A stretch of DNA of 64,000 nt from Heterotrichella gracilis (lineage: Eukaryota; Sar; Xanthophyceae; Tribonematales; Xanthonemataceae): NCBI GenBank assembly GCA_032358255.1, contig JAULBX010030375.1:62001-126000 (forward strand), written 5' to 3'. The translations under genes were made by a program, and so were the position numbers. The notes under the pieces were generated by a model. That model did not search any database. It was not told where the DNA came from and saw nothing but the letters and a program-made list of their open reading frames with translations. Positions within the stretch are counted from its first letter, which is position 1. Each line of letters starts with the position of its first letter. Positions 1-64,000 of the stretch are shown here, one piece after another.

Positions 1-1
1 C

Positions 2-184
2 TCTTCCTCGGATGGTGCCGCTACCACCACGACCAGCCAGCCGCCAGCTGGCGAGCCCCTGTTCCCCCACCTGTATGGGCCCATTGATCTGGCGGCGGTG
101 GCGGGGGTGCACGCCATTGAGCGGCGGGAGGAGGATGGCGCCTTCCTAGCCATTCCTGTGCTGGGACTGGGGGCAGAGGCGTAG
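2..184 (+). CDS. DUF952-family protein, C-terminal end (5' truncated)
   Basis: The window opens inside an exon whose frame ends at a TAG at 182-184. The readable end contains PHLYGPIDLAAVAGVHAIE followed by a short acidic-glycine stretch (EEDGAFLAIPVLG). The HLYGP-(I/L)-DL-x-AV pattern is the C-terminal half of the DUF952 family, small proteins of unknown biochemical role found in bacteria and algae. It is preceded by a Thr/Ser/Pro-rich linker, which may be an insertion in the family fold. The start lies outside the window, so length, targeting and exon number cannot be judged. Family assignment rests on this one motif. Confidence 0.65.
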   Translation, partial: SSSDGAATTTTSQPPAGEPLFPHLYGPIDLAAVAGVHAIERREEDGAFLAIPVLGLGAEA

Positions 185-1022: not shown

Positions 1023-3480
1023 TCATCCCGTCACATGGCGCTGCGCCGAGCCCGCGGCGATCGCATGCACCCGCTGCGCCGCGTCGTCATGCAGCGCCGC
1101 CGGCGGGTCCCGGGGCACCGCCTGGTACTCCGCCATGATGCTGGCTGCGGCGCAACCCCACTCCCCCGCGCGCCGTATGCCCTCCCCCGCCTGGAGCGCG
1201 GCCAGGAACGCCCCGCAGAAGGCGTTGCCGCAGCCTGTGGTGGGTGGTAAGGAGAGTGGGCAGCGCGATTAACAGCGTGGTCCGACGTTCAGAATCAGGT
1301 GGCTAATGGGAAACAGGAAAATGCTGATATCAACAGTGGATGTTGGAATCGCCGGACTCTGCTCGGAGCAGGGCTATATGGGCCTTTACCATGGGTGCAC
1401 GTGGGAAAGGAGCCTGCAGACATGCGGCGAGTGTTAAAGGGGGTGGACAAGCGAAGCACCCTTCTAATATACAGTAGCCATGCAGATGTGTGACGTTGCA
1501 TGGGGTGAAGAGTAGCTCGCTCTTAACGCACAGCGCCATGCGCTGCACACATGCGCAGACCTCAGACATGCCCACTCATCCCCACCCATCGTACCCGTCA
1601 CATCCACCACCTGAGTGAGAGGGTACGCAGGCACATGCCAAACCTCCCCACCCTCCCTGCTCGCCACCAGCACCCCCTGGGCCCCCATGCGCAGCGCAAC
1701 CACCTCCCCTCCCGCACCCATCATCTTTTCCACCTGATCCCAGGGGTCGGCACTGGGCCCCAGCAGGGATGCAGCCTCGTGCTCATTGGGAGAAAACACA
1801 TGGCAGGCGGAGAGCAGGGTGTGTAATTGTGAGGGGGTGAGCTGGCGCTCTGCTGCTGTGAAGGGCTCTATAGACAGCCTGCCTGCACCATTTTTTTGCA
1901 ATTTTCATTAGTCCCAATCAATTATGCTTTTTTCTTATATTCTGGGGTTTGCATTTCATATTCCCAAAGCAGCCACTGGTTTTGGCAGGGGTGAGCTTGA
2001 CTGTGATGGAAAGGGATGGATGGCCAGCCTGCCTGCCTGCATCCCTAGAGGTTTTAATGACTAAATGCACTTATACAGCAGGCTTCGGGCACCGAGGTGG
2101 TGTTAACTCGGCACCACACGTCAACTACCCTACATTGGGTAATACCATGGCCATCCAACCCTTCCCCCACTGCGTGCGTCCCCTCCCACCTGCGTATCGC
2201 TCCACCCCTTGCCTCAGCTGGCGCATGAGTTCCAGTGGTGGGTGTGAGGGGTGCACCCCCAGGTGGTAGGTGGCGGAGTGGTGGTAGGGGGTGGGGAGGG
2301 AGGCCAAGGGGGGGCGCAGCATGGCGACAAGTGCGTCTGACATGGGGGTGCGCCACACCTGCATGTGGAGACAGGCGCGCATGAGTATTTTGTACATGCA
2401 AACGTGCATGCAAGTGTGCGATATGCATGGATGTGGGCTTGAGGACAGATGCTGCATGACAACGCACATATGCATTGATGGCTGGGCCCGGAGAACGTGT
2501 GCAGGTGGCGTGTGCAGATGACATGCGAGTATGACAACTGAAACCCTATACCCTTCCTCGGTCCTCCTCCCGTCTTCCTCCTCCCGTCTTTATCCCGTCG
2601 CAAAGTTCAGGGAAATTCGAAAAAACATCGCTACCCTTCGGATTCGAACCTGCGACCCCTTGCTTAGTTGAACTCAAGACTCAACTCACTCAGGTGCCAA
2701 CGGCTGAGCCAACGGCTGGGTCGACTGTTGGAGGGGAACCGTTGGCCAAGAATTGGCTGGGTTATATGCCGGACATGCCACAACCTGCACCCTACCTCGG
2801 TCCTCCTCCCGTCCTCTTCAAGTATTTGCCACGCCCGCGGGGTGGGGTGGCCCCCCACCACCAGCCCCTCCAGCCCTACCCCACACCCCTCCAGCCACTC
2901 CCGGCAGTGGTGGGGCATGTCGCCCCCCACACCAGCCGCCAGCCCCACCGCTGCTGCCTGGCGGTGGTATAGCTGGAACCCATACAGGGTTTGGGCGCCT
3001 GGGTGGAGTGGGAGTGTAGGGTTTAGGGTTTGTTGATAGGGTTTGTTGGCCTGTCGGTAGTGGTGGGGGCTTTGGGTTTATTGACAAGCGCATGGAGGTG
3101 GTACACCTGAAACTCGAAGAGGGTTTGTTTGCCTGGGTGTTTTAGGGTTTTAAGGGTTGTGCATATGATTTTGTATGACTTAGGGTTTGTTTGGCTGGGG
3201 GGTTAGGGTTTAGGGCATTTTCAGTTTGTGCACCAGGGGGTTCAGGGTCAGGGCAACTTCACCCGCCAGAGGTAGCTCTGGAACAACACCAAGTGCATGG
3301 CCCATCCCCCTGTGGGTGTGCAGGTGTAAAGGGTAGGGGTTGGATGCCCCGTCTACCCACCTCCGCCGCCCACGTTGGCCATCATGGTCCTCCCATCAGG
3401 GAACACAATGTCGTCAATGATGAATGTGAAGCCCACACAGTCCAGGGCTGGCTGGCGGCTGCCAGGGATCCATGCAGCCC
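1023..3480 (-). CDS. PfkB/ribokinase-superfamily carbohydrate kinase, MAK32-like
   Basis: Minus-strand exons that join in phase are about 3361-3480 (5' limit unresolved), 2796-2998, 2190-2358, 1595-1882 and 1023-1234 (stop TGA at 1025-1023). The first recognisable exon reads LDCVGFTFIIDDIVFPDG and ends in a Gly run, the substrate-side start of the fold. Next come GAQTLYGFQLY and VGLAAGVGGDMP, then HPTPRAWQILEEDGRRTEVWRTP, then SPNEHEAASLLG, then VVALRMGAQGVLV. The C-terminal signature is DVTGCGNAFCGAF. The order and spacing match PfkB sugar/nucleoside kinases and most resemble the MAK32-like branch. The usual GAGD anion-hole/catalytic Asp is GCGN here, so sugar-kinase activity is uncertain. 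The substrate cannot be inferred. The true start codon was not found: the in-frame stretch upstream to about 3622 is His/Pro-rich and unlike the family. Confidence 0.8.
2588..2735 (-). mobile_element. Putative tRNA-derived SINE, copy 1 (in an intron of the PfkB-like gene)
   Basis: On the minus strand there is an A-box-like TGGCTCAGCCGTTGG, a potential anticodon-type hairpin of seven pairs (including one G-T) with a 7-base loop, and a perfect B-box GGTTCGAATCC. The T-stem pairs poorly, so this is not a working tRNA gene. The segment after the B-box resembles the sequence near 11338-11400, where a second element has the same box order. A repeated internal promoter plus a shared tail points to a SINE. 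No target-site duplications were identified. Confidence 0.4.
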
Positions 3481-9200: not shown

Positions 9201-12200
9201 GGTTTAGGCTTAGGGTTTAAAGTACCAGCTCCACGATCTGCTTGGCAATGACACCCTGCACGTAGCTGGCTGCAAGGGGGGAGCATAAGGTGAAACCTTG
9301 TGTATGGACAGGAACAAAAGATAAGATTTCAAGTTGGACAACTCCTCCCTGGTTGTGTCCAGCTCCCCCATCTGCTTGTCAATGACGCCCTGCACGTAGC
9401 TGGCTGCAAGGGTGGGGGAGCATGAGGTGAAACCTTGTGTATGGGCAGGAGGCGTGCGGTAAAACCTTGTTTATAATCGTGAAGCGTCAGATGGAGTCTC
9501 GTGTATGGGGAGGCGTGAGGTGAAACCTTGAGCCTGAAAACTTCTCCTTGGTCCAGCTCTAGCATCTGCTTGTCAATGACACCCTGCACGGGAGCTGGCT
9601 GCATGGGAAGGGTTTAGGGTTTAGGGTGTGGGATGGAGGATGCATAATCAATTTCCTCCCTTGTCCAGCTGCTTGGCAATCACCCCCTGCACATAGCTGG
9701 CCGCAGGGGAAGGGTTAAGGGTTTAGGCTTAGGGTTTAGGGTAACAGCTCCACCATCTGCTTGGCAATCACACCCTGCACATAGCTGGCTGCACGGGAAG
9801 GGGCAGGGAATTGGGGTGTAGTGTGTGGCGTGTAGGAGGTTCATGTAACAGAAATGCAAGCAAGTGGGCCTACGTAGGTACAATGGACTTGGAGATCTTG
9901 GGCAGATGAGCAGTCATGCTCCTTAGGTAGCCCTCAGCAAACAGCGCATGCGCTGCTGTGACAGACCAAGGGGAACGTGTTGGTAGCTGCACATGTTGCC
10001 AGCAAATGGTCAGAAGGCTCGGGGGCCTTCCTGTGGTAGGTTCTGCTTAGGATTGTGGGTTTAGAATTCACGGTTGTAGCTTCCGGGTTCTGCTGCGGAA
10101 CCACCTAAAGGTAGGTCCCAGATATTACTGATATACCCCATGCTAGGGTTCTGCTAGTAATTATAATTTGCATCAAGTATTCATACACCAGCATTCTGCT
10201 TATTGTTTAAGGTGATAGCTTGTGCATGGGAAGGGGCCTGAGGTGAAACCTTGCGCATGGACTGAAGCTCCCCCATTATTGTACCTTTCCGATCGCTCCT
10301 CGACGGCATCCTTCACCCCAAAACCGGCACCCATCCACCACAAACCCTAAAGCCAAACCCTAAACACCCACCTGACTCACTCCCACCATCTCCTCTGCCC
10401 CACCACCTCCCCGAGGTCCCTCCCCACCCTCCCTCCCCTCCACTGCCTGCTGCTCCCCGTGAAGCAGCTACCTCCCCCGATACCACTTTGAGCACGTCTA
10501 GGGAAAGTCGGGCAATGGTGGACCCGCATTCCCTTCCCTCTCGCTCTGCCATCTTCTCCACCCGGGCAAGCACACCTGCACCACACCACAGCAGATCACA
10601 TCGCATCAAACCACAACAACCACACACCGAACAGCATCACACCGTATCACATCACATCACATCACACCAAATTGCATCACATCACATCATGTCGCATGAC
10701 AGCACAGCAGGGCAGAGCACTGCATCCGCACCCCAAATCGCATCACAAGCACCCCACGCCACGCCTCAACAGCCTCCTGCATGCCTCTTGACGCCCAACC
10801 CCACCCCACCCCACCCCACCCCACCCTACCAAACCAAAACACACCCCACCCCACCAAAATACACCACAACACACCACAACAATTTCTACTGAAACCAACC
10901 CCACCAAACTGCACCTGGCTCCACCTGCCTGCGGCGCGCCTCTTCACAGAAATCAGACTGTGCCAGATTTTTGCAGTGAAAAAGGCCACATCACTGAAAA
11001 TCATCACCATGAAAAAATGCTGACTGGGTCCCATTTCATTGACAAAGACAGAGGTGTGAACATGACACCTAAGAATCAGATCTCAAAACGATGGCGCCCC
11101 ACTCCACCACGCCGCACCTGGGTCCTCCAGCCTGCGGCGCGCCTCTTCACAGAAATCCGACTGCGCCATGTCTACCGCTGCCTTGAGCACGTGATAGCAC
11201 TGCCTGCCTACGCTGCCGTCTGGTGCGTAGCCGTTGGGCACCCCTTGGGTGGTCTCCAGTAGCATGATGATGTCATCGATGATGAGGGTGGATAGCTGCA
11301 AGGGGGGGAAGGTGGTTAGGGTTTTGAGGGCGAACCCAAGTATTCCCGACAAACGTTCATGGAAATAAAGCAATAACACATGGCTCCGCCGTGGTTCAAA
11401 CCCTTGATCTCTTGGACGAACCCTCGAGCTTGTACTAATGGCTGGGTAGACCATTGGGGGGACGTGGATGTAATCATAGCTTTATGGGTAATGTGATGTG
11501 CCGATGCCATTGGTGACGCAGGCCGCACCTACTAGCACGTTCAGGATTCTAGGGTTGAGTGTTATATGTGAGCCAATGTGGGCATGGCGCACAAGGTTCC
11601 GCCCCACCTGTGGCCCATGCAGCGGGTGTTGGCAGCACAGGGCAAGGATCATGAGGCACATGTAGGGTTTAGGGTTTCATGTGAGCCAAGTTTGATGCAC
11701 ATGGTTTTGCCCCACCTGTGGCCCATGCAGCGGGTGTTGGCAGCACAGCGCCAGGATCATCACTTACAATGACCAATAACAATCACAATCCCAATATAAA
11801 ATCACATTTACACCTCACCTGTGGCCCATGCAGCGGGTGTTGGCAGCACAGCGCCAGGATCATCAAGCACCGCTGCCACAGCTCATCAGCCATGTCATCA
11901 TGCAGCCGCAGGTACTCACAACGCACCTGGAGAGGGCAGCGTAGGGTTTAGGGCTGTGGGTGTAGGGTTTAGGGTTTGGGATTCAGACCTATCAGCCATG
12001 TCTGCACGCAGCCGCAGGGACTCACGGCGCACCTGAAGAGAGGAGCCTAGGGCTCAGGGTTTCTTGGTTAAGGTTGAGTGTTCAGGGTGCAGGGTGCAGG
12101 CTGAGCGTGACCCTTGAAAACTCTTGTGCCCACCCTATCGCTGCAGCAACGTAAGGGCTATCACCCGCACCGACCTTCCACCCCACCACCACCACCCAGC

Positions 12201-16044: not shown

Positions 16045-18947
16045 ATGAAGCGCGTGCTGCTTGTGCGCCATGCAGAGTGCGAGATGAACCTGACGGTGGC
16101 GGATAGGGTACGTGGCAAACCCTAAACCCTAAAGTGCACACCCTAAACCCTAGGGTGTGAGGTGAACCTGACGGTGGCGGATAGGTTACGTGGCAAGCCG
16201 TAAACCCTAAAGTGCACACCCTAAACCCTAGGGTGCAGAGGAGCTTGACGGTGGCGGACAGGGTGCAAGGGTCCCCTGGTCCCTATTGACATAAACCCTA
16301 AACCCTAAACCTACACCCTAGACTCCTAGACAGATGCCGCATTGCAATCCCTGGTTTCCCACCTACCCCTTGCGATGAGACCATACCCTGCTCGTCCACC
16401 ACCAAACCCTAAACCCTAAAACCCTAAACCTACACCCTCGCCCCCGAGCCCTTCCCTCCTGATCCACACGGCATTCACACCACCCCCGCAACGTTTCCAT
16501 TTCTTTCTCCGATACAGACCAATATCATCCAATGTGCACATGCATTAGTCCACAGCTTCGTCCGTTGCTGCTGTTTCACTGACTGTGTGTTACTCCCCCT
16601 ACCCAGATTGGCGGGCAGAGCAACTCCTCCCCCCTCACCCCCCTTGGGGTCACCCAGGCACAAGCGCTGGGGCGACACCTGGCACAGCTGGCACACGAGA
16701 ACAAGTGGGTGCCTAGGGTTTAGGGTTTAGGTGGTAGGGTTGTCGGCTAGGGTCAGGGTGTAGTGTGTGTTGCCACATTACACAGCTGGCAACGAGAACA
16801 AGTGGGCGGGCACCTAGGGTTTAGGGCTAGGGTATGGGATCAGGGCTAGGCTTAGGGTGTAGGGTGTACTGCCACATGGCACAGCTGGCAAGCAAAACTT
16901 GCATGTGGGTGTAGAGAGTGAGGGATTTGTACTTTTTACCCCTTGTGCAAATATTTTGATGGGACCCTATGTCAAATTTTCGTGCCTAACGAATCCTACA
17001 CCACAGTCATCTCGAGGCATCTACCCCACGCCCTTGCGCACTGAGGTACCATCCCAAACCCTGGTCCAAACCCTTGTGCAGGTTCCAGCTGGGCCCAGTG
17101 TTTGGCAGCAGCACGGTGTGGCCAAATAAGACCAAAACCCTATCCCAAACCCTGTTTCAAAACCCTTGCGCAGGTTCCAGCTGGGGCCGATATTCTGCAG
17201 CAGCGCTGTGCGTGCAAGGGAGACTGCACGGCTGATTGTGGAGGGGATGGGGGATGCGGCAGAGGGGATGGAGTGGCAAAGGGAGGGGTTTGATGACCTG
17301 CGGGAGCTGGATCAGGGGGAGTGGGTGGGTGCTTAGGGTTAGGTTAAAGGGTGTAGGGTTTGAGGTACAGGGTATAGGGTTTGGGGTTTGTTGGCCTGCA
17401 GGAGCAGTGGTGATTGCTTAGGGTTGGCAGTGCAGGGTTCTTAGGTTTAGGGATGATGGCCTGCGCGAGCTGGACTGTGACTGGATGTGGGTTGGTGAAA
17501 AAACAGCTGAAAGACAATATAATGATCGGCACTTCTAAGGAATGATTGGCTGGTTATTTGTATGTGTCCCGGCGGTGAATGAAAACATAAACTCTCCATG
17601 GCCAGTGCCATTATCTTGTGAGGCTGAACCTCTGACTGCCTGGGTCCCAAATGCAAGCCTAACAATTACCCTACGAAAGGTACGAGTGCTGCACTCCCAT
17701 ATTAAATTATTCTGTACCAGGCGTCTCTGACTGACTGGCCTATTATCCTATCAGTCCTCTGACCAGCTACCCCTATTACCCTAGAAGCCCTTGCTGACCT
17801 GCTAGACCTATTACCCTAGCAGTCCTCGCTGATTGACTGCCCCATCACCCTACAGGAGGGTAAGCCACGCAGCGAGTGCTACACCCCGGAAACCCTAGCA
17901 GCCATCGCGCAGCAACCCTGGGACTTCAAGGCACCAGGGGGGGAGTCACAACGAGAGGTAAAACCCTAAACCCTAGGATGCTGAAACATAAACCCTAGCA
18001 ACCGTAGCGCAGCCACCTTAAAGGACTTCAAGGCACCAGGGGGGGAGAAACAATGAGAGGTAAAACCTTAATGAGGGAGGCAGACCCTAAAACCCTGAAG
18101 TCCTAAAGCCTAAGTGATCAGTAGGATTATTCCTCTTGCGTGTCTCCCCAGGATGGGGAGCGCCCAGCCCTGGATGAGCAGATCAGCCTAATAAAACCCT
18201 GAAGCCCAACCAAAAACCCTGGATGTGAATCAGCCAATGCCCCGCAGCAATCTTCCCGGTGGGAATATAGGCATAGAAAAATATAGCGAGCAATAGGCCC
18301 AGAATTACATTCCATTTTGCCAAGTTACAGCTTGTACCCCGCAGGTGGAGGAGCGCATGGTGTCTTTTCTTCACACTCACGTGCTCCCCTTGGCCTCCCC
18401 ACATGCGCCTGCGCTGGTGGTGTCACATGGGCTGGCCATCAAGTGTGTGGTGAGGTGGGTATATGGGGGGTGGGGGGATCATGGAATGTGGTGGGGAAGG
18501 TGGGATGTATGTGTGTGGCATGATGGGTGTGGAGGCGGCATTAAATGAGTGGTGGGGTAGGTGCAGAGGGGGTGTCATATGCGCCTGCGCTGGTGGTGTC
18601 ACATGGGCTGGCGATCAAGTGTGTGGTGAGGTGGGCGCAGGGGGTGGATGGGGATTGGGGGGGTGCGGGCTGGTGTAGTAGTGACATGGTTCACTGGTTA
18701 CGGGGGTTGCCACACACCCACACCCCACACACACCCTCTGCTTCACCCCACCGCCCCCACATGCCCCACTACCCCTCCCGATCAATCCCCACACCCTCCC
18801 CCACACCCACGCAGGCACGTGCTAGACTCCAAGCCGGCCCTCACCCGCCGCGTTCAGACTGACAACACCTCGCTGACTGGGGTGGGGTGGAGGAAGGGGG
18901 GGGGGGATGCGGGCTGGCACCTCACCAAGGTGAACCTAAACCCTTAA
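16045..18947 (+). CDS. Histidine phosphatase / phosphoglycerate mutase-like protein
   Basis: Six exons join in phase: 16045-16107, 16607-16704, 17174-17324, 17856-17957, 18345-18454 and 18815-18947, giving 218 residues. The start MKRVLLVRHAECEMNL contains the RHG/RHA catalytic box with the phospho-accepting His. IGGQSNSSPLTPLG is the conserved second element. FCSSAVRARETA carries the phosphate-binding Arg, GFDDLRELDQGEWEGKPRSE includes the catalytic acid region, and VVSHGLAIKCVVR holds the second catalytic His. The C-terminus NTSLTGV...GWHL is typical. The family hydrolyses or moves phosphate on small metabolites or proteins. The substrate cannot be told from motifs, and this length is closer to broad-specificity phosphatases than to glycolytic mutase. 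Introns hold several decayed copies of the preceding exon ends. Confidence 0.88.
16078..16262 (+). repeat. Three tandem copies of the exon 1/intron 1 border of the phosphatase gene
   Basis: A unit of about 77 bases contains GATGAACCTGACGGTGGCGG, a donor-like site, and then two CCCTAAA clusters. It occurs at 16082, 16157 and, more decayed, 16232. The first is exon 1 itself. Others of the same kind follow exons 2, 4 and 5 at about 16780-16900, 18000-18062 and 18580-18640. Confidence 0.85.
16113..16437 (+). repeat. Interstitial CCCTAAA telomere-type repeats
   Basis: Clusters of two to three perfect CCCTAAA heptamers lie at about 16118-16170, 16200-16235, 16290-16315 and 16402-16436. They fall inside intron 1 of the phosphatase gene, flanked by unique and coding DNA, so this is not a chromosome end. 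Similar short clusters occur in introns throughout the window in both orientations. Confidence 0.85.
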
Positions 18948-26118: not shown

Positions 26119-26904
26119 GGGCGCGCCATGCAGGGGGGATACTAGAGTACTACAGTAGAGTACTATACTAGAGTACTATACTAGAGTACTATACTAGAGT
26201 ACTAACTACTCGGCTACTAGCCAGGGCGTGCCGCAGCCAGCAGGGGAGGAGGGGGGGGGGCTGGGGGGCAAGGGGAAGATATTGGAGGGAGGCTGACGGG
26301 GCGGAGCAGCTATGGGTGGTGAAGGGTTCACGGGGGCCAACAGCTTTACTGAAATACTGACTTTCAAGCAACCCACCCGTGGCGGGAGTGGTCCCAGGCT
26401 TTGAACGCACGACTCCTACATCCAAGTGGCCAATATCTTGACCTGAACCCCATGCGATCGCGCAGTGCCACCCAGTCTGGTAGGGTCTGAACTGGGGCTC
26501 TAGGCTAGCCTTGTAGCTCAGTTTGGTACCATCACCACCGCCACAAAATCCGTTCCTGTTGACACAGACTTACGATTTTGTCTCGTTTACAAATGTTACA
26601 CTGCCAGACCATGCAGCACCTGCCAGCAGTGTGCCTCTCGCATTGTAAACAGTGTCAATTCAGACCGAGTCACTCGCGAGGCCTCAAAAACCCAAAACCA
26701 TAAAACCCTAAACTTGTACCCCTAGGGGCTGGGTCTTCCCCTCCCACCCTCAGGCTGAGTTTTAGCGTGGCATCGATGACCATGCATGCCCAGGAAAAAG
26801 GGGAAATTAAGAAAGAAAGGGTACGCACAAAGGCAAGCCCGGGACAATTCTAGCTATTATTATCGGGGGCAGCGCCCCCCCCTCCCTCCTCCTCCCCTCC
26901 CCAG
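26119..26904. other. Spacer between convergent bL31-like and ShK-AKR genes
   Basis: It holds a 13-base minisatellite at 26141-26207. At about 26510-26530 it has an A-box-like TAGCTCAGTTTGGTA with no convincing partner B-box or cloverleaf. No supported ORF. Confidence 0.5.
26141..26207. repeat. Minisatellite, five units of 13 bases (ACTAGAGTACTAT)
   Basis: Five nearly perfect consecutive copies of ACTAGAGTACTAT lie just after the bL31-like stop codon. Each unit holds the palindrome AGTACT, so the array can fold on itself. Confidence 0.9.
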
Positions 26905-43458: not shown

Positions 43459-46400
43459 TTACCCCCCCTCCTCCCCGTCGTCTCCTCCATCCAGGGCGTT
43501 GAGTATGCGCAGCAGCTCCTGCTCAGTGCCCGACAAGGCGCCGCCACCTGGCGCAAGAAAGGGGCGGGGGTGAGGGTGAGATTTGCACATAAACTGGCCC
43601 GCACACCACCTGGTGCGCACATGACTTCACCTGACTTCCAGAGTATGGCGTGCATGCAACTCCAAAATGGATGGGTGGGGAAGTGCGGTGACCACCAGAC
43701 TCCAGTACAAAACTGCAAGGTGTGCGCGTGACTCTCATTGACACCCAAGGCGTGCAAGCGATCCCCAAACGCCCCCCACAGCGTGATGCGCAAGCCAATC
43801 CCGAGCCAGTGCAGCTCCCTAAATGTGCCCTAACACGTCTCCTCAAAGACACGACGTATGGGAGTGTGCATGCCTGTGACTTACGTGCTGACGCTGCGCT
43901 GGCCCGCTTGTTAAGGGTCTAGGTGTAGGGTTTAGAGTTGTGACTCACGTGCTGACGCTGCACTGGCCCGCTTGTTTAGCCTTGACCTGATGCCAAACAG
44001 GCGCTGCCGGAACTGGCGGATGTTCTTGGGGAGCTGGACCTCCCCGTAGAGCTGCAGGGGGGGGAAGTGGCAGGGAGTGAGTGAGTGGGGAGACAGGGGG
44101 GTGGGGGGGTGCCCTGGTTGATGGTGGCTACATGGCAGCAAGGGTGAAGGGGGTGCGGGGCTAGGGGGGGTTGGTGGTGGATTGCAGGGGGGATGCTGTC
44201 AATTGTGCTGCTTTGGCCGCCACGGTGGTGGCCATTCTCTCCCCCTAACATACAGCACATCAAGGGCCAGCCTCCTCAGTCCATGTGCAGCCTGTGTGGC
44301 GACACCCCCACCCCACCCACCCGCCTGCGCCATGTCCCCCAAGCATGTCCTGACCTTCATGCAGTACTGCCAGCATGGGTCACATCATAGCAGCCTCCGT
44401 TACTCCATGGTCAGCGAGCGTTGCCTAGCATGCCCCAAACCCTCCTCCCATGCGCCAACACCTCATGCAAGCCATTTCCCATCCCAACCCACCCACCATA
44501 CCTGCGTCTTGTCCCCCCGCCACGCCTTCACCCTATTTAGGATGCCAGCAGGAGGCGAGAAGGTGAAAATCCATGGTCTGCCAGGATTGCCTAGCATGCA
44601 CCAACCCCCTATCAAACCCCCTCCTCTTTCACCGCCACATGCAAGCCATTTCCCCTCCCACCGCCCACCCACTGCCGTCGCCACCCACCTGCGTCTTGTC
44701 ATTCCAGCACGCCTTAACGCTCTCCAGTATGGCCAGGGTGTCAGTGAGCAGCGTGGCCGCCTCCTTGAAGCCATGGTCCGCCAGGGTTGCCCGCAGGTGG
44801 TCCACTATGGAGTGGCACAGCGTCTCGAGGATCTCCAGTGACTTGCGCTTCCGGAAGGGCCAGCGGTTGACCCCAATGGCGCGGCAGGCCTTCTTGAGGG
44901 TGGACTCGCCCACCTTCATGATGGCGCAGGCGTCCTGGGGTGAAGGAGAATGGTGGTGGGTGAGTGTGGGGGTGGGGAAAGGAGTATTTGGAGGGGGAAA
45001 TAATGTTGGAGGGGCAAAGAGGGAAAAATGACTTTTGTAGGGGCAAAGAGTGCGGAGGGGGGGATTTGTGATGGGATGGTGGGAGTAAATCCTAGGGGTT
45101 GAGCACAAGGCGAGCAAACCCTAAACCTAAAAGAAGGGATAGCAACCCCAAACAAGGGGTGCGGCGCTGACAGCAAAGGTGAACGCCATGGCGTGAGGTC
45201 ATGAAACACACATATTTCAGCAGGAGCAGCCATTACAGACCAAGGCAAGGCTTGCACATCAACAATGCAAGAACAATACGACGCAGGAGGGGGATTCCGC
45301 CACTTACAATCATGGGTAGGTCAAACAGCCCGTTCTCCTCCAGGTACTCCACAGTCAGGTTGGTCATGTTCTGGTAGCCCTCGATGGCATCGGGGTCCTG
45401 CGCAGCGGCAGCGACCGCAGCGGCGCGGGCACTCGCATCGCCGCGCACCGTGCCGCCAGGGGGCGACCGCCCAGACCCCGCGCCGCCGCCGACCGACCGT
45501 CCTGACCCCCCGCCGCCGACAGGCGACCGCCCAGAACCGTCCCCGCGTCCAACATCAAGCGGAGCCAACCCGCGCGGGGAGCGTCCACTGCCGAAGGATG
45601 CCGCCGCTGCAGCCGCGGCCGCCAACGCGATAGCGGCGTGCTCACCGCCGCCGCTGCCGCCGCGCTCCACGGCATCCCTCGGCGGCGGCCACGGCATCCC
45701 GTGGTGCCCGCCGCCGGGCGCGTCGGGGCGCGTCCACCGCCTGAACCCCTGCCCCATGCTGGCCAGCTCCCCCTGCTCTGGATGCTGCTGCTGCTGCTGC
45801 TGCATGAGGTGCATGTGCTGCTGCTGGGCGCGGCTGGGGTGCAGCGACTGCGGGATGGGCAGCGGCCCCAGCGGCGGCAGGTTGTGCCCCGTGCCGAACA
45901 TGCTAGTGAACATCCCACCCGGCATGCCATGCGGCGGCACCGGGCCGCCAGGTGTCGACCCCGTGCGCGACACGTGCCCATGCCCACCCATCCCGCCCAG
46001 CTGCTGCGCGGCGGTGATGATCCCCTGCTGCTGTCCCCGGGGCTTAAAAAAGCTGTTGGACAGCCCCTCGGCGGCGCCCCCCCCCAGGCTCGACCCCGCG
46101 CTCATCATGGAAGAGGTGTTTGACATGGCGCCCCCCATGGCGCCCTCCTCCGACTTGATGCGCTTGGCGGGCATGGGCAGGTTGTTGAGCGGCTGCGTGA
46201 GACGCGAGTTGAAGCGCGCGAGGAAGTTCTGGTACACGCTGTCGGCGTCGGTAGCCGAGATGTCATCGGCGCCGCCCAGCGCCGCCGCGGGGGCGTCCTC
46301 GTGCGCGTGCGGCCGCTTGCGGGTGCCGGCCTGCTCCTGGAGCGCCTCGAGCGCTGACTGGATCTGGGCGGCGGAGGGGAGGGGGGGTGGCGCGGGCAAG

Positions 46401-53769: not shown

Positions 53770-56700
53770 TCAACCCCCCATCAGCTTATCCATGGCCTGA
53801 ATAAGAGCCCCCTCCAACTGCCACCTGTCAAGCGCCAGCGAGGATCGCCAGTGCAGCCAGTCTGACATGCAGCGCTGCGCCAGGGGGGGCGGGGGGCACT
53901 CGCCTCGCTCCATGAGCGCAACCTTGGCACCAGGGGGGAGGGCGGCCCAGTGGGGGTCGCGGGAGAGCTCCTGAGGGGTAGGGAGTGGGTTGGAGTGGGA
54001 CGGGGCTAAGGTTTAAAGTTTGCGTGAAAATGGTCCCTGTACGGGGGTGGGGAGGGTATATTTGTGCACACCAATGCTAGCGTATTCTGCCAGCTAGTGA
54101 TGAGGCAGATGGGGATCGATGCAGATTGTGTGACCCATGCAGTCCTACTGACGGGGGGAGCGAGTCGCGCCTGGGGTGGAAAAGAGGAGGCATGCATGGG
54201 GGAGTGTAGGCGGCAGTACATGGGCTTGTATCGCCAGAGCATTTACCGCGGCAGCATGTAGATTTGAAGGTAGAAGAGGTGGGGGGCATGGAGGCGGTGG
54301 GCGAGCACCCCAAAAACTTGGTGCATTAGGCACAGGCACCACTTGACATTCCTTCACCCGGCACCCACAAGGCCGCATGTTCAGATGGCAATCGGGCATG
54401 GCAACTGGTCCCCATTGGTTGATACGGCTGAGCTGTTAATATCGACCAGTGATCAGGCAAGCACAAATGCAAAAGCCACCCAAGCCAGTGCCATTGCAAG
54501 ATTGCCCAACAACGCAAGACCCTGGCACAGCACATGCAATACTGCCGCCCTGCCACACTACTGGCCCACCCCACCAATCCCCCATCCCCCACCAGCACTT
54601 ACATCTGTGTTGAGCACCACCCGTGCGGTGTCGTTGTTCTGCAGCTGCATGAGGTGGACCTCAAGCTCAAAACCCTTGGCTAGGGACTGCACCCACTCGT
54701 GGGGGCGGGTGTCTGCTGTCGCCCAGGGGACGATTTCAAGCGCGACCGCACCCTGCGGGGAGGGAATACAAGGCAAGGGGTGAGTGCTGACGTCCGAATG
54801 CCCTAAGGAGGGTTTTGGGTGTAGACGGGGCAGGAACATGACCTTGGCCCGTACGGTTGCACCGCTAGGGTTTTCAAGTATACCCTAATGCAGGGTCGTG
54901 GCGCACCTTTGGGAGGAACATGACGTTAGCCATGGCTGCCCCGTGCGGCCACACCATGACAGATGTCTCCCGGAACAGCTTGATCTGATCCCTGCACAAG
55001 AGGCAAGACAGGGTTTACAAGGCCTCGGGTAGGGTTTCATATGGGTAGCCCGCCAGGGGGAGGGCTGGGGGTTGGAAGTATTTGGGTCCAGACAGGTCTA
55101 GGAAATGGTTTCAGGATTGCTTGTTGCCGCATCTCAGCGGTAACTGTTCAACCAGCTTGCTATCAAATTTTGCTCCCCAAAAACCCTAAAAAATCCTACC
55201 TACCTACCCGCCCAGCACTACCACATACACTACGCCTCTCTGTTTCCAAACCCCGCCCTAGGGTCCCAAAAATTGCAAAGACAGTACCTCAGCGGCATCT
55301 GCTCCAGCAGCTTTGCCCTGACCCTGACCTGCCTCCCCTGCGCCCGTTGGGCGTCCTGCCACCCAAAACCCTGCAAAATAACCTCCAAATGCCTACCCCG
55401 AGGCTTCCCACCAGCAACATCTGCTTCACCAAGCTTGGCCCTCGAATGCCCACTCAAAAAAACCCTTGCAAAACCCTACCTGAGTGGCATCTGATCCAGC
55501 AGCTTTGCCCTGACCCTGACGTGCCTCCCCTGTGCTCTTTGGGACTCCTGCCAACCCCCTCTTAGGTTGTCAAGCAACAAGGGCAGGTTGAGTATGGATC
55601 GGCCCTGGTGGTAGTAGCGATTGATGAAGGTGACGGTGGGGCGCTGCCGGGGGGCCTGCGGGGTGGGGGTTGGGAGTATGTGGAGTGGTGGGTAGGGGTG
55701 GGGTAGGGTGGCGGCGGTTTTGGGTGGCAGGGTTTTGGGGTTAGGGTTTTGGAGCCGCGGATTGCAAGTATAGGGGTGGGGAGGAAGGGCAACGAGCAGA
55801 TGGCCCTGAGAAAATGTCATTGCCCTAAGGATGGCAAAATCCTTAGGCATGGCAAAAACCCTAGGCATAGTCAAAAGTGTACGCAAAGATGGGCCGGTGT
55901 GAAGGCCACTGCAGGCACTGGGCACACCCTGGCCACACGGGTTGGCCAGCAAAACCCTGACAGAGGTTCTGCCCAAGCCTCCCCACCTCCCCCCATGCGT
56001 CATATCTATCCCCATATAGTAGACCCTGTCGCAGGGTTTTCCTAACCCACCTCTCCATGCGTGAGGTCGATCCCCATGCAGTCCGACAGGTACTGGCGCC
56101 ACTGGAGCATCATGCCGGTGGGGGGTGGCTGGTAGTGGTCAGGCAACCTGAGGAGGGGTGGCGGGGGAAGGGGTTGAGTTAGGGGTGGGGAGTGGGGAGT
56201 GGGGAGGACCCTAGCATAGGAGTTCCTTCGTAGATATAAGGAAACTGATGCCAATGCCATAGCAGGGGAATTAAGGCTACAAGTTGTGGCATGTCCTAGC
56301 GTAGGAGTCTTCAGTAAATTCTCAAGTATACAAGCCCATCGTTTGTTGTCATGTACAAGTTGTGTGAAGCCCTACAGCAAGGGTTTGTGCATGCGATGCC
56401 AGCTGTGCAAAGCCCTAACGCAGGGTTTGCTGCAACGCACCAGTTGTCCCAGTTGTGGAAAGCCCTCACGTAGGGCCCTACCCCAATGATCGCTGACTGG
56501 ATGCGCAGAACCTGTGGGGGCGGGAAGTGGGGAGGCGGGGGTGATGGTGTGGGGCCTCAACTCTTACCAAATGCGCCCTCAGTATATACACGGTTGCAAA
56601 GGGCAAACATGTGGCGCACATTGCGCCCCCAGTACACACGGCTGAAAAGGACGCGATTTGGGGCACATTGCAGGGCACATGTCTGCGAAGTGTACACGCA

Positions 56701-58832
56701 CGTGACGCAATGGTGTGGCGCCCCTAATTTGGTGTGGACGTGCAGGTTTTCCCACAGAGGCAGACCCTAGCCTAGGGTTTCACCTTTGCGCGGATGGGCG
56801 GCGCCTGTATGTGGTAGAGCGCCTGCTCCGACAGGCACTGCATCATCTGGAGCACAGGGACCAGCAGGAACCAGGGCGTCTCAGCATGCTGCGGCTGCAC
56901 AAACAATATCCGGAAGCCCTTGCGCTGCTGGTAGGTGCATCGACCCAGGAAGGAGCACATTATTGTGAAGAAGGTGGGGATGACCTCTGTGATCATGTGG
57001 TAGTAGTTGAAGAAATGGACCTGGTGGAAGAGGGCCACTTGATCGTATGACTCCACCTGCAGGAGAGGGGGACTTGCCTGTAGGAAGAAGCGCAGTGAAA
57101 AAACAAAAACGTTATGACGGTGAGGATGGGCTCGGTGGTCAGGAGGAGCAGGTTATGGTTGGGAAGGTGGGTATGACCTCTGTGACCATGTGGTTGTAGT
57201 TGAAGGAGTGCACCTGGTGGAAGAGGGCGACTTGATCGTATGATTCCACCTGCGGGAGGAGTGTGGGTATGTGCGTGTAGGAAGAAGCGTGTTACTGGGA
57301 AGCCTAATACTTCCCTGTCAAATTTCAAGTATATATGACACATGCCCATGCGCCATGTGCACCGTTACCAGTACCAAACTCTAAACCACATCGCCACCAC
57401 CCAACATGACACATGTTTAGCAAGCACCCACCCACCCACCCACACTTCCACCCACCTCCACCTCCATCCAGTCGAACGGCAGGCCCTGTGGCCCCACCAC
57501 CTTTGGCACCATCCTGTCATCCCCCTCCCTGAAGTCCTCCCAGGTGGTGAGCCAGGTGGTGCGGATGGGGGGCAGGGACACATGCGGGTCTGCAGGGTGG
57601 GGTGGGGGTGGGGGTGGATGGTGTGGGGGGGCAGGGTGGGGAGGGGCGGGGGGCAGGGGGGTGGTGTATGTGCATGTGGGCCTTTATGGTGTCCCTCATT
57701 TTGGTGCCATTGTGGCAGGGGAGAAGGGTGGATAGGGTTGGGGTTTGGGGTTTAGGGAGGGGTGCTCATTTTGGTGCCCCTGTCACAGGGCCTTTGGCGG
57801 GAGGGTTTAGGTAGGGTTTAGGGTGCATGAGCGTGCGGCATGCAACCATTGCTTCCATACATGGGCAGGGGTTGTTTAAGGTCCAGGATAGCCTTGATGG
57901 TGGGTGAGAAACCATGACCTACCCTTGCTTATTAATACAAATTCCTTTTTTAGGGTTTAGGGTCTAGGGTTTGAGGGTGTCAGCCGTGACCTACCCTTGC
58001 TTATGTAGTACAGGCTCCCCTTGTGTAGCAGCACGTTCTGGAAGCTGCACAGGCGCGTGTGCTCGCTGCCTGAGTCGTGCAGGCACTGGGCAAAGGGGAT
58101 TAAGTGGGGCTGAGCGTGTGAGCGTGCAACTGGTTTTTAGGGTTTAGGGTTTGTAGGGTGCAGAGGGGGTCCGTGAAGTGCTGAGTGTGCAAGGGGTATC
58201 AAACACGTTGACTATGCAAAGGGGGTTACTGATTATGCTGAGCGGTGTGCTCCCTGCCAGCGCACTGCAGGCACTGGGCCAGGGGGTTTACGTCACTCTT
58301 GAGGGTAGGCAAGGTTGGTATGCCAGGTGCTGTATGCTGCGAGCATAAGGGTGTGTGTGACTGAGTGATGGTCCCATTAGGGTTTAAATGTGGGCCAACG
58401 CTGCCAGTGTCTTGTGCAAAAACCACCTTTCAAACGCTGCAAGTGCATACACAGCCACTCAGGACTGCTGTGCCACCAGGTACTTGGGTGCAGGAGGTGG
58501 TTGAAGGCGGTGGGTAATTGGGATGGTGGGTTCATGGGTGCAGTGGGTTGGTGGGTGCACTGGGTTGCCATGCAGGTGGGTGCACTAGGGTGTACCTTGT
58601 ATGAGGACATGGGCAGCTGCGGTGGTGATTCATCCTGGCACTGGCTTGGCCGCCCAACCTGTGATGCAATGACGAAGGAGTGGGAAACGTGGTCTTAGAA
58701 AGTTCAGGAATGTGCAAGTTGATTTGTGCCCAACCACGGAAAAGTTCAGTGGGCAACCCCCACCCACCCACCCACCTGCGCCACCAGCATGAAGAGTGCC
58801 AGTGCGGTGAGCTGCCGGTGACCCGCCTCCAT
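53770..58832 (-). CDS. GT61-family glycosyltransferase, intron-rich
   Basis: Minus-strand exons: 58776-58832, 58596-58658, 57995-58085, 57456-57589, 56784-57056, 56482-56511, 56051-56128 (or to 56147), 55480-55655, 54907-54991, 54603-54752 and 53770-53970. The N-terminus MEAGHRQLTALALFMLVAQ is a signal peptide or anchor. CLHDSGSEHTRLCSFQNVLL is the conserved start of the DUF563 region. VALFHQVHFFNYYHMITEVI matches the GT61 'H-N..H.i.E..p' element. RPTVTFINRYYHQGRSILN and VWPHGAAMANVMFLPKGAVA are the nucleotide-sugar site, and LEIVPW follows. The terminal Cys/Trp-rich segment ends MDKLMGG. It should act in the secretory pathway, adding sugar to glycans or cell-wall glycoproteins. The phase of exons 6-7 is ambiguous: only the internal acceptor at 56129 keeps the frame. 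Copies of exon edges lie at 57150-57256, 55290-55375 and about 56000-56035. Confidence 0.83.
55230..55380 (-). repeat. Decayed copy of the exon 8 end of the second GT61 gene
   Basis: The minus strand reads GWQDAQRAQGRQVRVRAKLL then EQMPLRY. This is close to the authentic exon end at 55480-55570 (GWQESQRAQGRHVRVRAKLL, DQMPLR), including a GTACTG donor-like site. It lies in the following intron, and CCCTA phrases separate the two. Confidence 0.9.
57148..57258 (-). repeat. Decayed copy of the start of exon 5 of the second GT61 gene
   Basis: The minus strand reads ESYDQVALFHQVHSFNYNHM then VTEVIPTF, a near copy of the used exon start at 57056 downward (HFFNYYHMITEVIPTFF). It includes the CCTGCGG acceptor region and lies upstream in the preceding intron. 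Confidence 0.9.
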
Positions 58833-60044: not shown

Positions 60045-61389
60045 AGGCTGTAATGCAGCGCACAGCACCAGCTGGGAGGGTCAATGGCAACTGGTATAGC
60101 AAGTGACAGCAGCCATACAGCACACCCCAAAATGGAGCCGCACATCACTACGGTAGCTTGGCCAGTATGGCAGCTCAGCAAAGTTAGAAGTCATAAGTTC
60201 TACACAGCTTTGCAAACCTCTCAAAAATGGAGCAGTTGGCTGTTGAAACCCCGCAGTTGAACCACTGGCCTTCCTCTGTAACTACTGAAGTTGAGCAAAC
60301 TTCACTTGGCATGCATAATGGGACCACCCATAGCCACCAACACACAACAGAACGCAGCAGGCTCCACTGCCACTGTTGGCCAGGTGAAGCAAGGCCTGTG
60401 GTCGCTGGAACTTATCACACATAGCGCACCAACACACGCCCCCATGCGGGTCGCGTTTGAAGCGCTCATCCATGATGGATGCCTGCCCCCGTCTTCCCCA
60501 TGCGACTGCTCCACCAGTGCCCAACAAAGCTTGGGGTTTGACGCACACTAAACAAGGGGGGAGTAACCCACTGACTATCGCCAGCACAGGGGAAGACCGT
60601 TTGCCTTGCCAAGCGTTGCAGGTCTTTGACACCTTGGTTGACTTGATGCGCCACCCCCAAGTGTCTGTGCCAAAGCAGGAAAATGTATGCACACGGCAAG
60701 GAATGAAGTTATAGAGCCGGTTGGGCCTGTGGTAGCGGTCGAAAAGTAAAAGAAGACCGTCACACATAAGTGCTTGGCAGGTCCCATGCTACAGATTCTT
60801 TTTGTTGGAAACCCTTGTCAGCACAGCCAGCATCTTGCCTAACCCAATCTGATCAGCTTAAATGCTGAGTTCAGGAGAGCCCAACATGGGCTTTGCAGTG
60901 TGGCTTTGGCCACCACTTGGTGGGGGGAAAAAGCACCTCCAGGAGGAAAACAATTTTATTCTTTTTTCTTCCTATTTTCGGAAAGTCGCCGCAATTTCCG
61001 CCCTGTTTCGGACTGACCTGGCGGAGGATGGGCGTGCGTGTGCGGTAAATGCGTGCTGTAATCGCAAGTAAAAGCATATTGTAAGCCAGCAACCTGAGTA
61101 AAACTGCTTCAATTGTTACAGAAAGGTCGGAAACAGTGTCGGCCGCAGCCCCGCCATCTCATAGGCATCCACTGGCCCACCACCGCCGCCAAACCAGCCT
61201 CACGCCAACCATTTCTACGCAATTATCTGCGCTTTTGGACGCCAGCATTAAGCCCAGTAAACACAGCTGTTAAGCAGTAGCCTTTGCGCCGGTGGTTGCC
61301 CATCTGGCATGCCACTGCCCCACTAGGGCGCAGCCAGCCTCCACAGCGGACCAGCCTGCTGATCCTGCTGCACGGAGAAGGGAGGCTCG
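60045..61389. other. Spacer between QCR9 and the terminal acidic-protein gene
   Basis: Both neighbours are on the plus strand. Nothing recognised in 1.3 kb: composition is mixed, without CCCTAAA clusters, and no ORF has domain signatures. Confidence 0.45.
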
Positions 61390-64000
61390 ATGGGGAAGAA
61401 GGGAGGGCAGGAAGGGGGGAAACGGAAGGCGGAGGCGCCCGCCCCCGCGCCGCAGCCCCAGAAACGGCAGCAGCACGCCGCCACGGTGCGGTGGGGTGTG
61501 GATGCATGCATGCATGCATATGGTTCGCCCTGCCCACCAACGCACACCCGCTTTAGTCACTGCAGCCGCTACCCTGGCGCCTCGGTTGTGCCTTGTTGGT
61601 CTGCACAATTGGGGCGTGGGGTTGTCTTACCCTACCTGATACTAGAGGTCTACATGCACGTGGGTACCATATATATGCTGTCTAAGAAGCTGTGCACACC
61701 CATGGCAAGGGTTATTCGGAGGGTTTAAACGCTACACAGCCTTACCATCACGATTATAACACTCTGCAAACCAACCTGCTGTTGGGTATTGCATCAAACG
61801 TGCACAGGGACCCTTGGCAACCCTTGACAACGCGGCTGCCCCCCACCCACAACCATGCACTTGTGGTTGTTGATACCGCCCCCACCTCCCGCCCTTCCCG
61901 GGACAAACTGTGACGTGCTGGTCCCATGTGCAGGCATCCAAGGGGAAAGTAACGGTGCAAGCAAAGCCCAGCAAACCAGCTCCCAAGGTATGGACTGCGG
62001 CCAACCCTCTGCTAGTATAATACTGTGACTTCTGCTGTCCAAACCGTAAACCTTAAACCCTAAACCCTAGTGTGGTATCCTGCACACCCACTGCACAACC
62101 AGCAGCATAGCATAGGCACCGCCGCTCTGCTGTACACCCTTGTACTGTACAAAGTTTTTATGCTACTCTCCCCGTTGCAGGCCACCTTGAGCCTCGCAGC
62201 TGGCAAGGGGGTCAAGCCCGCCCCTAAACCCTCGCCGAAACCCTCCAAGGGTTTCGCCCCCAAGCCCGCCAGCCTGCCAGCCACCGAGGGTTCCAAGCCC
62301 GCCTTAAAACCCTCGGCGAAACCCTTCGCAAAACCCTCCAAAGGCTTTAGTGACCACAACGCTTCCTGGCTCAAGCCCAAGGGGGAGAAGCCCAAGGGGG
62401 GGAAGGGCAAGGGGGGGAAGCCCGCTCCCGTGGAGGAGAGTGAAGGGCAGGAAAATGAGGAGGAGTATGACGAGGATGAGGAGCTGCTGATGGCAAAAGG
62501 TGGGTGGTGTGTGGTGTGCTTGCATCTTTTTCTCTCCGTTCTTGCACATAGGGAGGGTGCTGCTTCTGGATGCCCCTCCGGGATTGCGAAGCCTGGGAGG
62601 TGCACATGGTGGGTGGGAAGCACTGCGGCGGGCTTTGCATTGTTATGCTGTAATTTATGGTGGGTGACACCCAGTGGCTGGCATGGCATGCATATCTAAT
62701 GTGATCGCTGGTGCGCGTGCCTCCCTGGGGTCAGGGGATTGCCGCGCTTGGGACGCAGTCATTTGTGACCATGCGTGGTCTGGCCACGCATGTTGCCAGG
62801 GGTTGGCCATCAGTAGCGTTGTATGCGTGGTTGTGATATGGCGTGGATGTGTGTGAGGTGGCATGACCAGACCTTGCCATGGTGTGGCATGTGGGTGGAG
62901 GAAAGGAGGGCATGCGTGCTTCAGCGTTTCAGCCAGGTTGGTGGCACTGCGGGGTATGGCTTGCCCCAGTTTAAGGACCAAGGCTTGAGGCATGGCATGG
63001 GGGATGAGCGTGTTGCTGTGGGTATGCAGGCGGTAGCCTGGAGGTTGAGAGTTAAGGTTATAGGTTCGGGGTGTAGGTACTATTCAAGGGTTTAGGGTTA
63101 TGTACCGTGTAACGGTGGGTGTGCAGGCGGTGGCCTGCAGCTGGGCAATTTAGGATGTAGAGTTTGGTGTTCAAGGGTTTAGGGTTTCATGCCGTGTTGC
63201 TATGGTGGTGCAGGCGGTGGCCTGCAGCTGGACAGCGGGGATGAGTCAGGCAGCGACGGGGAGCCAGGGGAGGAATTTGACAGCGACGATGATGAGGAAG
63301 GGGAGGAAATGGAGGATGGCAGTGAGGATGAGGAAGGGGAGGAGGAGGATAGCGATGACAACGAGGCAGGGGAGGGGAACGATGATGTGGAGGAGAAGGA
63401 GTGGGCGCGCAAGCTCAAGGGCATCTTGACCGTCAAGGGGGGCAAGAAACCCAAGGTAAATTGTTACAAGGATGGATCCATGATTCTTGACAGGGGATGA
63501 TTTAATACGTGCATGTACTGCCGCCTGTACATGAGCGTGGATTTGCTATGCACATCACCTTGGGCTCTAGGATTTATGGAAAAACCACTTTGGATCACAC
63601 CCTGCTATTTTGTATAACGGAAGTAAAAACGTTTATATATGTATTGGAAGTCATATATGCAACCAACTCACACACGAAACAAAACAAGGTAGACGGGCAA
63701 TTATGGCAATTTGCTGCACCCATCCCGACTCCTGTTCCTGCTTTTTCCCACCCAAGGTACCCGACACTGATAGTGACAGCGACAGCGACCTGGGGGTGCT
63801 AGACGACGAATTCGACGGGGAGGACATGGAGGGTGGGGATGATGACGACAGCCCCGGGGAGCTGTTTTCCAGCGGGGATGAAGGGGAGGACAGCCCAGGG
63901 GAGGAATTTGGGTCCATGAGCGAAGGGGAGGAGAGCGATGGGGATGACGATGAGGGGAGTGGGGATGATGAGGAGGAAGGGGAGGAGGAGGAGGAGGAGC
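61390..64000 (+). CDS. Lysine-rich/acidic nucleolar-type protein, N-terminal part (3' truncated)
   Basis: Exons 61390-61485, 61934-61987, 62181-62499, 63214-63455 and 63757-64000 (open at the window edge) join in phase. The start MGKKGGQEGGKRKAEAPAPA is a basic nuclear-localisation-like leader. A Lys/Pro/Ala repeat region follows (KPSPKPSKGFAPKPA and variants), then FSDHNASWLKPKGEKPKGGK, then long acidic Glu/Asp/Ser tracts (SEDEEGEEEDSDDNEAGEG, DTDSDSDSDLGVLDDEFDG). EWARKLKGILTVKGGKKPK lies between two acidic blocks. Such alternating basic and acidic low complexity is typical of nucleolar ribosome-biogenesis factors with a catalytic domain further on. The domain that would name it is beyond the window, so I assign no family. 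The final intron's acceptor is CCCAAG. Confidence 0.65.
63020..63240 (+). repeat. Three copies of the exon 4 start of the acidic-protein gene
   Basis: GCAGGCGGTAGCCTGGAGGT (about 63028), GCAGGCGGTGGCCTGCAGCT (about 63124) and GCAGGCGGTGGCCTGCAGCT (63211) each follow a GGTGTGCAG-like or GTGGTGCAG acceptor. Each of the first two is followed by TTTAGGG-type phrases. Only the third continues into the long acidic exon. Confidence 0.85.

Follow-up and report, generated by a model that had tools for sequence, protein, structure and literature searches.

Diverged copies of exon edges in introns of Heterotrichella gracilis and the telomere-like tracts between them

The 64,000-nucleotide stretch of the Heterotrichella gracilis genome analysed here (assembly GCA_032358255.1, contig JAULBX010030375.1, positions 62,001 to 126,000; hereafter the window) carries genes whose introns contain diverged, directly oriented copies of the end or the start of the adjoining exon. 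In the window and the first 200 kb of another contig (C2:1-200000), the edge of an intron's own flanking exon is copied on the same strand in 80 of 271 introns, in eight of them from both sides. This copying of exon edges into introns is real, and we lean towards viewing such exon echoes as the fixed products of frequent local duplication during the repair of breaks, with filler left behind, that persist where splicing conceals them. No description of pervasive exon-edge copies in introns was found in the titles and abstract openings of the open-licence PMC literature that we searched.

Exon-edge copies and the introns that hold them

Unless stated otherwise, all counts refer to this 264-kb sample from two contigs of a genome of 68.5 Mb in 903 contigs. 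The window had been picked for being repeat-rich; C2:1-200000 lay outside the choice made by an earlier, sequence-only reading of the window. A gene finder trained on the 264 kb yielded 31 models (9 in the window, 22 in C2) with 283 introns, from which we dropped 12 that were at least 1500 nt long or had a flanking exon score of at most 8. The models are home-made predictions; adjacent genes are sometimes fused in them, and some echoes are called as exons (e.g., 35654-35796). The predicted introns have a clear consensus (donor AG/GTRNG, acceptor GCAG/G, the slash marking the border), and a Pfam scan of 10 predicted proteins or pieces returned the expected families in every case: PfkB, histidine phosphatase, SDR, L31, ShK with aldo-keto reductase, ATP sulfurylase with TBCA, Mago-binding (PYM), RWP-RK, GT61, and RRM with CCCH (U2AF35). 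The names of the MYND and acidic-protein genes, outside the Pfam scan, are those of the sequence-only reading.

Self-comparison of the window with blast gave 46 repeat pairs, 44 of them less than 3 kb apart (41 direct, 3 inverted), and C2 gave 51 direct and 7 inverted pairs; dinucleotide shuffles of either sequence (five for the window, three for C2) gave none, which bears out the proposal that the copies are local direct tandems. The window is richer than C2, both in direct pairs (0.64 vs 0.26 per kb) and in introns matching their own upstream exon end or downstream exon start (22 and 12 of 67 introns vs 33 and 21 of 204), and thus represents a rich region and not an exception. The suggestion of a genome-wide process gains from the presence of the copies on an unselected contig; its basis is 264 kb of 68.5 Mb, on two contigs.

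An intron's own upstream exon end is matched in 55 of the 271 cases and its own downstream exon start in 33, whereas matches on the opposite strand number two and one, respectively. Comparison of exon edges with the introns of other genes gave 269 and 274 pairs, about one per 271 introns; a further 42 and 71 pairs, undivided, involve other introns of the same gene (each exon borders two introns). A rank test that does without blast finds the signal at z>3 for 66 of 240 upstream and 35 of 244 downstream edges, with two and four antisense cases. When the 103 matches present in 74 introns are sorted by position, 32 run across the donor, 22 across the acceptor and 12 plus 11 are confined to the exon edge or stop there, the remainder being intron-intron (18) or of other kinds (8); hence, the matches reach the splice site and often cross it. 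At c2:189655, for instance, GTACACTAAACCCTAAACCTTAAACCC comes after the exon end, and a copy of that end follows a few bases further on. Identity ranges roughly from 62 to 97%, length from about 30 to 180 nt, and most offsets are below 420 bp in scans that reached no further than 1-3 kb. A unit size of 70-180 bases had been proposed; copies of about 30-180 nt largely agree with it, but it is the offset and not the copy length that falls into classes, as described below.

Most of the genes for which echoes had been proposed indeed carry them, namely PfkB, MYND, the phosphatase (in all five introns), SDR, bL31-like, ShK-AKR, ATP sulfurylase, RWP-RK, GT61 and the acidic protein (Table 1), and the proposed absence from U2AF35 and TBCA agrees with the intron self-match scan, in which neither has an exon-edge copy. 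PYM is ambiguous: besides one weak 33-nt match it holds the pair listed in Table 1, most of which falls within a single predicted exon that may have been given the wrong end.

Introns with a match have a median length of 442 nt, those without one of 306 nt, a difference that agrees with the proposed intron lengthening and is partly due to longer introns being larger targets. Tandem duplication of an AGGT-bearing exon segment could also create introns (the Rogers model), echoes then being remnants of intron birth. Acceptors with a strong AG/G (G at +1 in 72%) and exon-to-exon matches across a few introns (exU->exD 3, spanD->exD 2, spanD->spanA 1 of 103) would fit such an origin. However, the surroundings of donor and acceptor resemble each other barely more than permuted pairs do (0.2556 vs 0.2490, sd 0.0042; 0.2474 vs 0.2514, sd 0.0046), the donor-side intronic copies lie well away from the acceptor, and the single match among the 103 that spans both donor and acceptor has an offset that differs from the intron length. 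With neither an offset equal to intron length nor a clear excess over permuted pairs, the Rogers model is largely refuted here and highly improbable as the source of the echoes. Duplication has lengthened existing introns; it has not created them.

Telomere-like tracts, filler and size classes

Of the 11 contigs that bear perfect (TTTAGGG)8 arrays, six have them within the first 200 bases and reading outward; these terminal arrays identify TTTAGGG as the true telomere repeat. Short internal tracts are widespread, with 406 forward and 428 reverse places of three repeats genome-wide, overlapping matches counted. The tie between echoes and TTTAGGG that the sequence-only reading had noticed is borne out by counts: the window holds 78 of these words where 8.0 are expected, no intron words are more enriched than telomere 6- and 7-mers, and tracts make up 5.5% of the sequence between copies vs 1.8% in shifted controls. 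In 80 independent spacers, telomere 6-mers cover 9.9%, where 500 shifted controls give 4.1 (sd 0.8); at least one such 6-mer is present in 43 spacers where 26.2 are expected, so that not every junction has one. A separate feature of intron interiors in both samples is the enrichment of palindromic CATGCATG-type words (CATGCAT 72 vs 19.0 expected, GCATGCA 75 vs 21.6).

The association also holds when one starts from the tracts. With telomere words masked and flanks of 200, direct repeats flank 59 of 147 tracts (32 of 66 in the window, 27 of 81 in C2) and an inverted one flanks a single tract, whereas random noncoding sites have direct repeats in 19 of 147 cases and inverted ones in three (p 2e-7 for the tract difference); permuted flanks give 1%. 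Eight loci with interstitial telomeric sequences (ITS), measured with flanks of 220, amount to seven distinct tracts, as L005 and L006 have the same scores and are seemingly one tract; L001 (which lies inside the 200 kb of C2), L002, L003 and L008 exceed the threshold for flanking direct repeats and L004 for inverted ones. A telomere 7-mer is present in 72 of 94 echo introns vs 68 of 177 others, and in 26 bins of 10 kb the densities of tracts and duplications are correlated with a rho of 0.74, a value uncorrected for the noncoding share.

Within introns, the tracts crowd at two places, the initial 40 nt and, in the form CCCTAAA, about positions -40 to -20 before the acceptor; echo introns show this most clearly. 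Such positions raise the question whether the motifs are selected splicing signals, a branch-point-like CCCTAAA before acceptors and TTTAGGG or CCCTAAA after donors, with the echoes a side effect or reserve sites. This is supported by the presence of both peaks in match-free introns, where they are weaker, and by the splice sites that the echoes, as had been proposed, offer as spare ones: where the alignment covers the site, 31 of 37 donor copies still have GT and 23 of 28 acceptor copies AG, at 83% and 79% identity of the exon part, slightly above the neutral expectation given by the square of identity (p 0.05 and 0.03). Once uncovered sites are counted as lost, though, retention (31 of 44 and 23 of 33) equals neutral decay; moreover, both motif orientations occur after donors, and direct repeats often flank tracts wherever these lie in the 264 kb. 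Donor- and acceptor-side motifs do not co-occur (p 0.70), which also led us to reject a pairing of the two as an RNA loop. Collectively, we consider selected splicing signals quite unlikely as the primary cause.

Blast offset histograms lacked offsets below 80, probably because gapped extension meets the main diagonal, and we therefore turned to an ungapped scan, which detected 176 events in the 264 kb and none in one shuffle and preserved both peaks of the histograms. The offsets fall into two classes, with 48 events at 80-110, 47 at 160-220 and just 15 at 110-160, the middle range thus holding 15 of 110 vs 36% if the distribution were flat (p 4e-7). Each contig shows this separately (24/5/24 and 24/10/23), and 36 of the 47 longer-class events overlap no event of 80-115. 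Copy length and spacer length each vary more than their sum; the typical event inserts filler plus copy with a total of about 95 or about 190 bp. As the classes are also found in intergenic DNA (4, 1 and 4 of 17 events, a small sample), splicing probably does not impose them. They may instead reflect chromatin spacing, in a numerical resemblance to half and whole nucleosome lengths. An intron-internal array in the MYND gene region (7289-7736; 2.5 copies of a 182-bp unit at 85%, with abundant TTTAGGG) falls into the same size class and has no exon part.

What lies between the copies is in most young pairs not derived from them. At an identity of at least 85% and a spacer of 25-200 bases, 11 of 17 spacers resemble neither the next stretch nor the previous one nor the copy (z>4, both strands). 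Of 97 spacers with telomere words masked, 23 have a nearby match and one has a match in the remainder of the 264 kb. All three young fillers searched genome-wide (Table 1) lack another match in a search that skips very common words, and we consequently rejected capture of the filler from elsewhere; two of them (18480-18575 and 55365-55465) have marginal local similarity in the spacer test.

The arrangement of copy, filler without traceable source and copy, together with a total length in two classes, is what an introner-like mobile element might leave behind if it inserted the filler and made a long target-site duplication, and introners have been described from algae as well as fungi (Gozashti et al., 2022; PMC9860276). 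A mobile family should, however, be recognizable between loci, and the masked spacers gave a single cross hit among 97 (34 when unmasked), in line with the three fillers that have no other genome match. The duplicated stretches are also variable and 30-180 nt long, against the 3-9 bp reported for some introner families in the portion of that work considered here. We judge an introner-like element very unlikely.

Origin of the copies

Taken together, the copies would be explained most readily by repair of DNA breaks. A staggered or resected double-strand break would be followed by fill-in and end joining, in the course of which a nearby stretch of about 30-180 nt would be copied in direct orientation and sourceless, often telomere-like filler left between the copies, each event adding about 95 or about 190 bp. 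An event inside an exon would ruin the protein and be lost; where the duplicated segment extends over a splice site, on the other hand, the additional copy would be intronic and spliced out, and would survive and decay into an echo. The telomere-like filler may have been added by telomerase, or telomere-like stretches may draw breaks or the CST complex.

Survival of this kind goes far towards accounting for the position of the echoes. Forward simulations started from real exons, placed duplications at random, removed those that destroyed an exon and let the others decay. Without filler, events touching an exon edge accounted for 512 of 721 detected cases (71%; 1500 simulated), and with filler for 783 of 1264 (62%; 2400 simulated). 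The ungapped scan gave 88 border cases among 141 (62%), the other 53 being intron-intron and the 17 intergenic and 18 exon-exon events left out; among intron self-matches, the eight of other kinds left out, border cases number 77 of 95. Selection and detection thus explain most or all of the border excess, and the process aimed at exon-intron borders that the sequence-only reading had envisaged is not needed, random duplication with selection giving 62-71% border cases against 62-81% observed.

A border-aimed process, arising for example from co-transcriptional splicing breaks or R-loops, would nonetheless accommodate the 77 of 95 self-matches that surpass both simulations, the crowding of telomere motifs at the two intron ends and the larger number of events per kb in genes than in intergenic DNA. 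Against it stand the ungapped scan, in which the border share equals that of the simulation with filler, and the ends of the copies, which are just modestly more concentrated near splice sites than simulated ones. A process of this kind is in our estimate unlikely. By gene span, 141 intron and border events fall into about 197 kb and 17 intergenic ones into 67 kb, which hints at a link to transcription or at missed genes.

Several points speak against break-repair duplication hidden by splicing. The excess of border cases among self-matches over both simulations is one such point, and the rate may not be uniform, as intergenic DNA holds 17 events in 67 kb vs 53 in 131 kb of intron interiors. 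For the size classes, only a putative cause can be given. The orientation that telomerase would be expected to leave, with TTTAGGG after the first copy and CCCTAAA before the second, is not seen in the 80 independent spacers (26 for, 32 against, p 0.51); an earlier 30 of 47 on overlapping pairs vanished on independent spacers. Telomere-repeat addition at breaks, which had been put forward from the letters alone, is thus half supported, by the tracts and not by their direction. Finally, the spacers of older pairs often resemble the copy (11 of 37 and 12 of 32; 23 of 69 in total), and part of the loci are therefore plain arrays.

Some loci, such as the array at 7289-7736 and C2:4374, indeed look like the outcome of ordinary minisatellite slippage or unequal crossing-over. 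For the echoes as a whole this explanation is extremely doubtful, since neither the non-homologous filler between most young copies nor the size classes and the telomere tracts at junctions would be expected from it.

Break repair with local copying and filler is therefore the reading that we carry forward, and the interpretation offered by the sequence-only reading is supported in part. A more far-reaching version, in which chromatin-phased, telomere-linked repair adds blocks of half or one nucleosome repeat (~95 or 190 bp, telomere-rich filler plus exon-edge copy) to genes and forms the main engine of intron growth, is tentative and in our view less probable than its opposite. If it is true, much intron sequence would be recycled exon in various states of decay. 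As about three in ten of the sampled introns show their source in the adjoining exon, one could measure within one genome how old the added intron sequence is, how fast introns grow and how selection acts on this growth, and the size classes and telomere tracts provide testable handles on the repair pathway. Echoes are also a hazard for annotation because they resemble exons; the ATP sulfurylase echo at 35654-35796 is open enough to have been called one.

Loci in the window and related systems

The individual loci are compiled in Table 1. In the ATP sulfurylase gene, the copy at 35731-35806 that the gene finder called as exon is probably an echo. The echo at 56946-57289 was also considered as U2AF35, an assignment that was rejected since it is a second match to GT61 residues. 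Among the best 120 of 2723 hits of the U2AF35 protein of the window, the top relative shares 86% identity, and the named relatives are green algae (70-81%), then land plants. An orthologue search with the SDR protein gave distant hits only, comparison of the phosphatase with solved structures distant relatives only, and the assembly holds no haplotig of positions 16000-19000 by which events could be dated. Two further repeats are a near-perfect 91-base inverted repeat (90%) at 19684-19774 between the phosphatase and SDR genes, and a short tandem array of ATACTAGAGTACT (5.5 copies) at 26139-26208, just 3' of the bL31-like gene.

Table 1. Exon-edge copies and associated features in the window (positions in the window; strand in brackets)
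Gene	Position	Feature	Offset (bp)	Identity
PfkB (-)	2956..3236	acceptor-side copies over 3' end of intron 2999-3360	about 134-148	67%
MYND (-)	11550..12092	end and donor of exon 11819-11926, two more copies in intron 11296-11818; CCCTAAACCCTA between copies 2 and 3	103, 211	76-89%
MYND (-)		acceptor-side copy in intron 11927-12221	106	77%
Telomere-like tract CCCTAAA (-)	16120..16147	example within a duplicated intron
Histidine phosphatase (+)	16676..16898	end and donor of exon 16607-16704 copied in intron 16705-17173; each copy followed by a TTTAGGG tract	98	78%
Histidine phosphatase (+)	17051..17224	start and acceptor of exon 17174-17324 copied in intron 16705-17173	91	78%
Histidine phosphatase (+)	17890..18096	end of exon 17856-17957 copied in intron 17958-18344; CCCTAAACCCTA at junction	100	78%
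Histidine phosphatase (+)	18400..18655	end and donor of exon 18345-18454 copied in intron 18455-18814; 96-base filler 18480-18575, no other genome match	176	88%
SDR (-)	20493..20761	part of last exon 20689-20895 copied in 3' flank	200	75%
bL31-like (+)	25686..25973	start of exon 25840-26118 copied in intron 25129-25839	148, 185	66-78%
ShK-AKR (-)	28575..28885	end of exon 28772-28995 copied at 28575-28693; 73-base filler 28694-28766, no other genome match	192	92%
ATP sulfurylase (+)	34255..34640	acceptor-side copies in intron 34097-34595	209	69%
ATP sulfurylase (+)	34765..35167	end of exon 34596-34868, copies in intron 34869-35424	96, 182, 267	73-80%
ATP sulfurylase (+)	35510..35806	segment of exon 35425-35603 copied at 35731-35806	221	84-86%
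ATP sulfurylase (+)	37090..37410	end of exon 37017-37146 copied in intron 37147-38518; adjacent copies ~97 apart	188	
PYM (+)	38701..38938	pair 38701-38767 / 38870-38938, in or at end of predicted exon 38519-38932	169	79%
RWP-RK (-)	44324..44791	end of exon 44689-44934, two copies in intron 44052-44688	200, 366	64-68%
GT61 (-)	55273..55556	end and donor of exon 55480-55655 copied in intron 54992-55479; 101-base filler 55365-55465, no other genome match	192-193	86%
GT61 (-)	56946..57289	part of exon 56784-57056 copied at 57140-57289	194	84%

Known systems share some traits with the echoes; the statements on them that follow refer to the portions of the respective papers considered here. Tandem genomic duplication is described as a route of intron gain, in which local duplication of an exon gives rise to an intron (review PMC3443670); introns are created there, whereas here this was tested and existing introns were found to have grown. 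Introners form repeated families, some with target duplications of 3-9 bp (Gozashti et al., 2022; PMC9860276), and resemble our case in large-scale intron change and a nucleosome-linked geometry; they differ in that our fillers have no relatives and share no family, and in that copies of about 30-180 nt take the place of short target-site duplications.

Telomere repeats inside genes have precedents as well. Plant telo boxes, for which a telomerase-spreading model was advanced (Gaspin et al., 2010; PMC3022908), are likewise isolated telomere units dispersed over genes, thought by their authors to stem from telomerase acting at breaks, but they are concentrated in 5' regions and infrequent in coding sequence, whereas the tracts studied here lie at both intron ends, beside duplicated exon edges. 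ITS formed by insertion into double-strand breaks (Nergadze, 2007; PMC2246262; horse and human ITS, PMC7215372) resemble our loci: the repaired breaks carry telomere repeats, in part together with random extra bases and a direct duplication of the target. Such duplication is present at about 5-16% of loci there, as opposed to 59 of 147 tracts here; our junctions often carry telomere repeats, and the G-strand shows no tendency to read away from the extended end.

The closest counterparts are two forms of break repair. Duplication by proximal DNA capture yielded 824 proximal human cases with copies of 162 bp on average, including four partial-exon and four full-exon donors, at an average distance of ~1.2 kb for which the authors noted a method bias (Pace et al., 2009; PMC2671141). 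Local break-repair copies, filler and breakpoint scars are common to both systems, and exon edges with their splice sites can be duplicated; in H. gracilis the copies likewise lie near their source, with filler in 11 of 17 young pairs. The echoes stand apart by affecting about 30% of the sampled introns over distances mostly below 220 bp, by telomeric filler and by two size classes. CST-guided fill-in by Pol alpha-primase at breaks produces small tandem duplications (Schimmel et al., 2021; PMC8355091), which arise from complementary 3' overhangs, are joined by non-homologous end joining and involve a complex that also fills in telomeres. Small direct duplication is what we observe too; filler and telomere repeats at the junction are seen here and go unmentioned in those parts of that paper, and a corresponding enzymatic basis in H. 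gracilis is putative. Break repair with local copying and filler, of the kind described in these two studies, is the best fit to the exon echoes.

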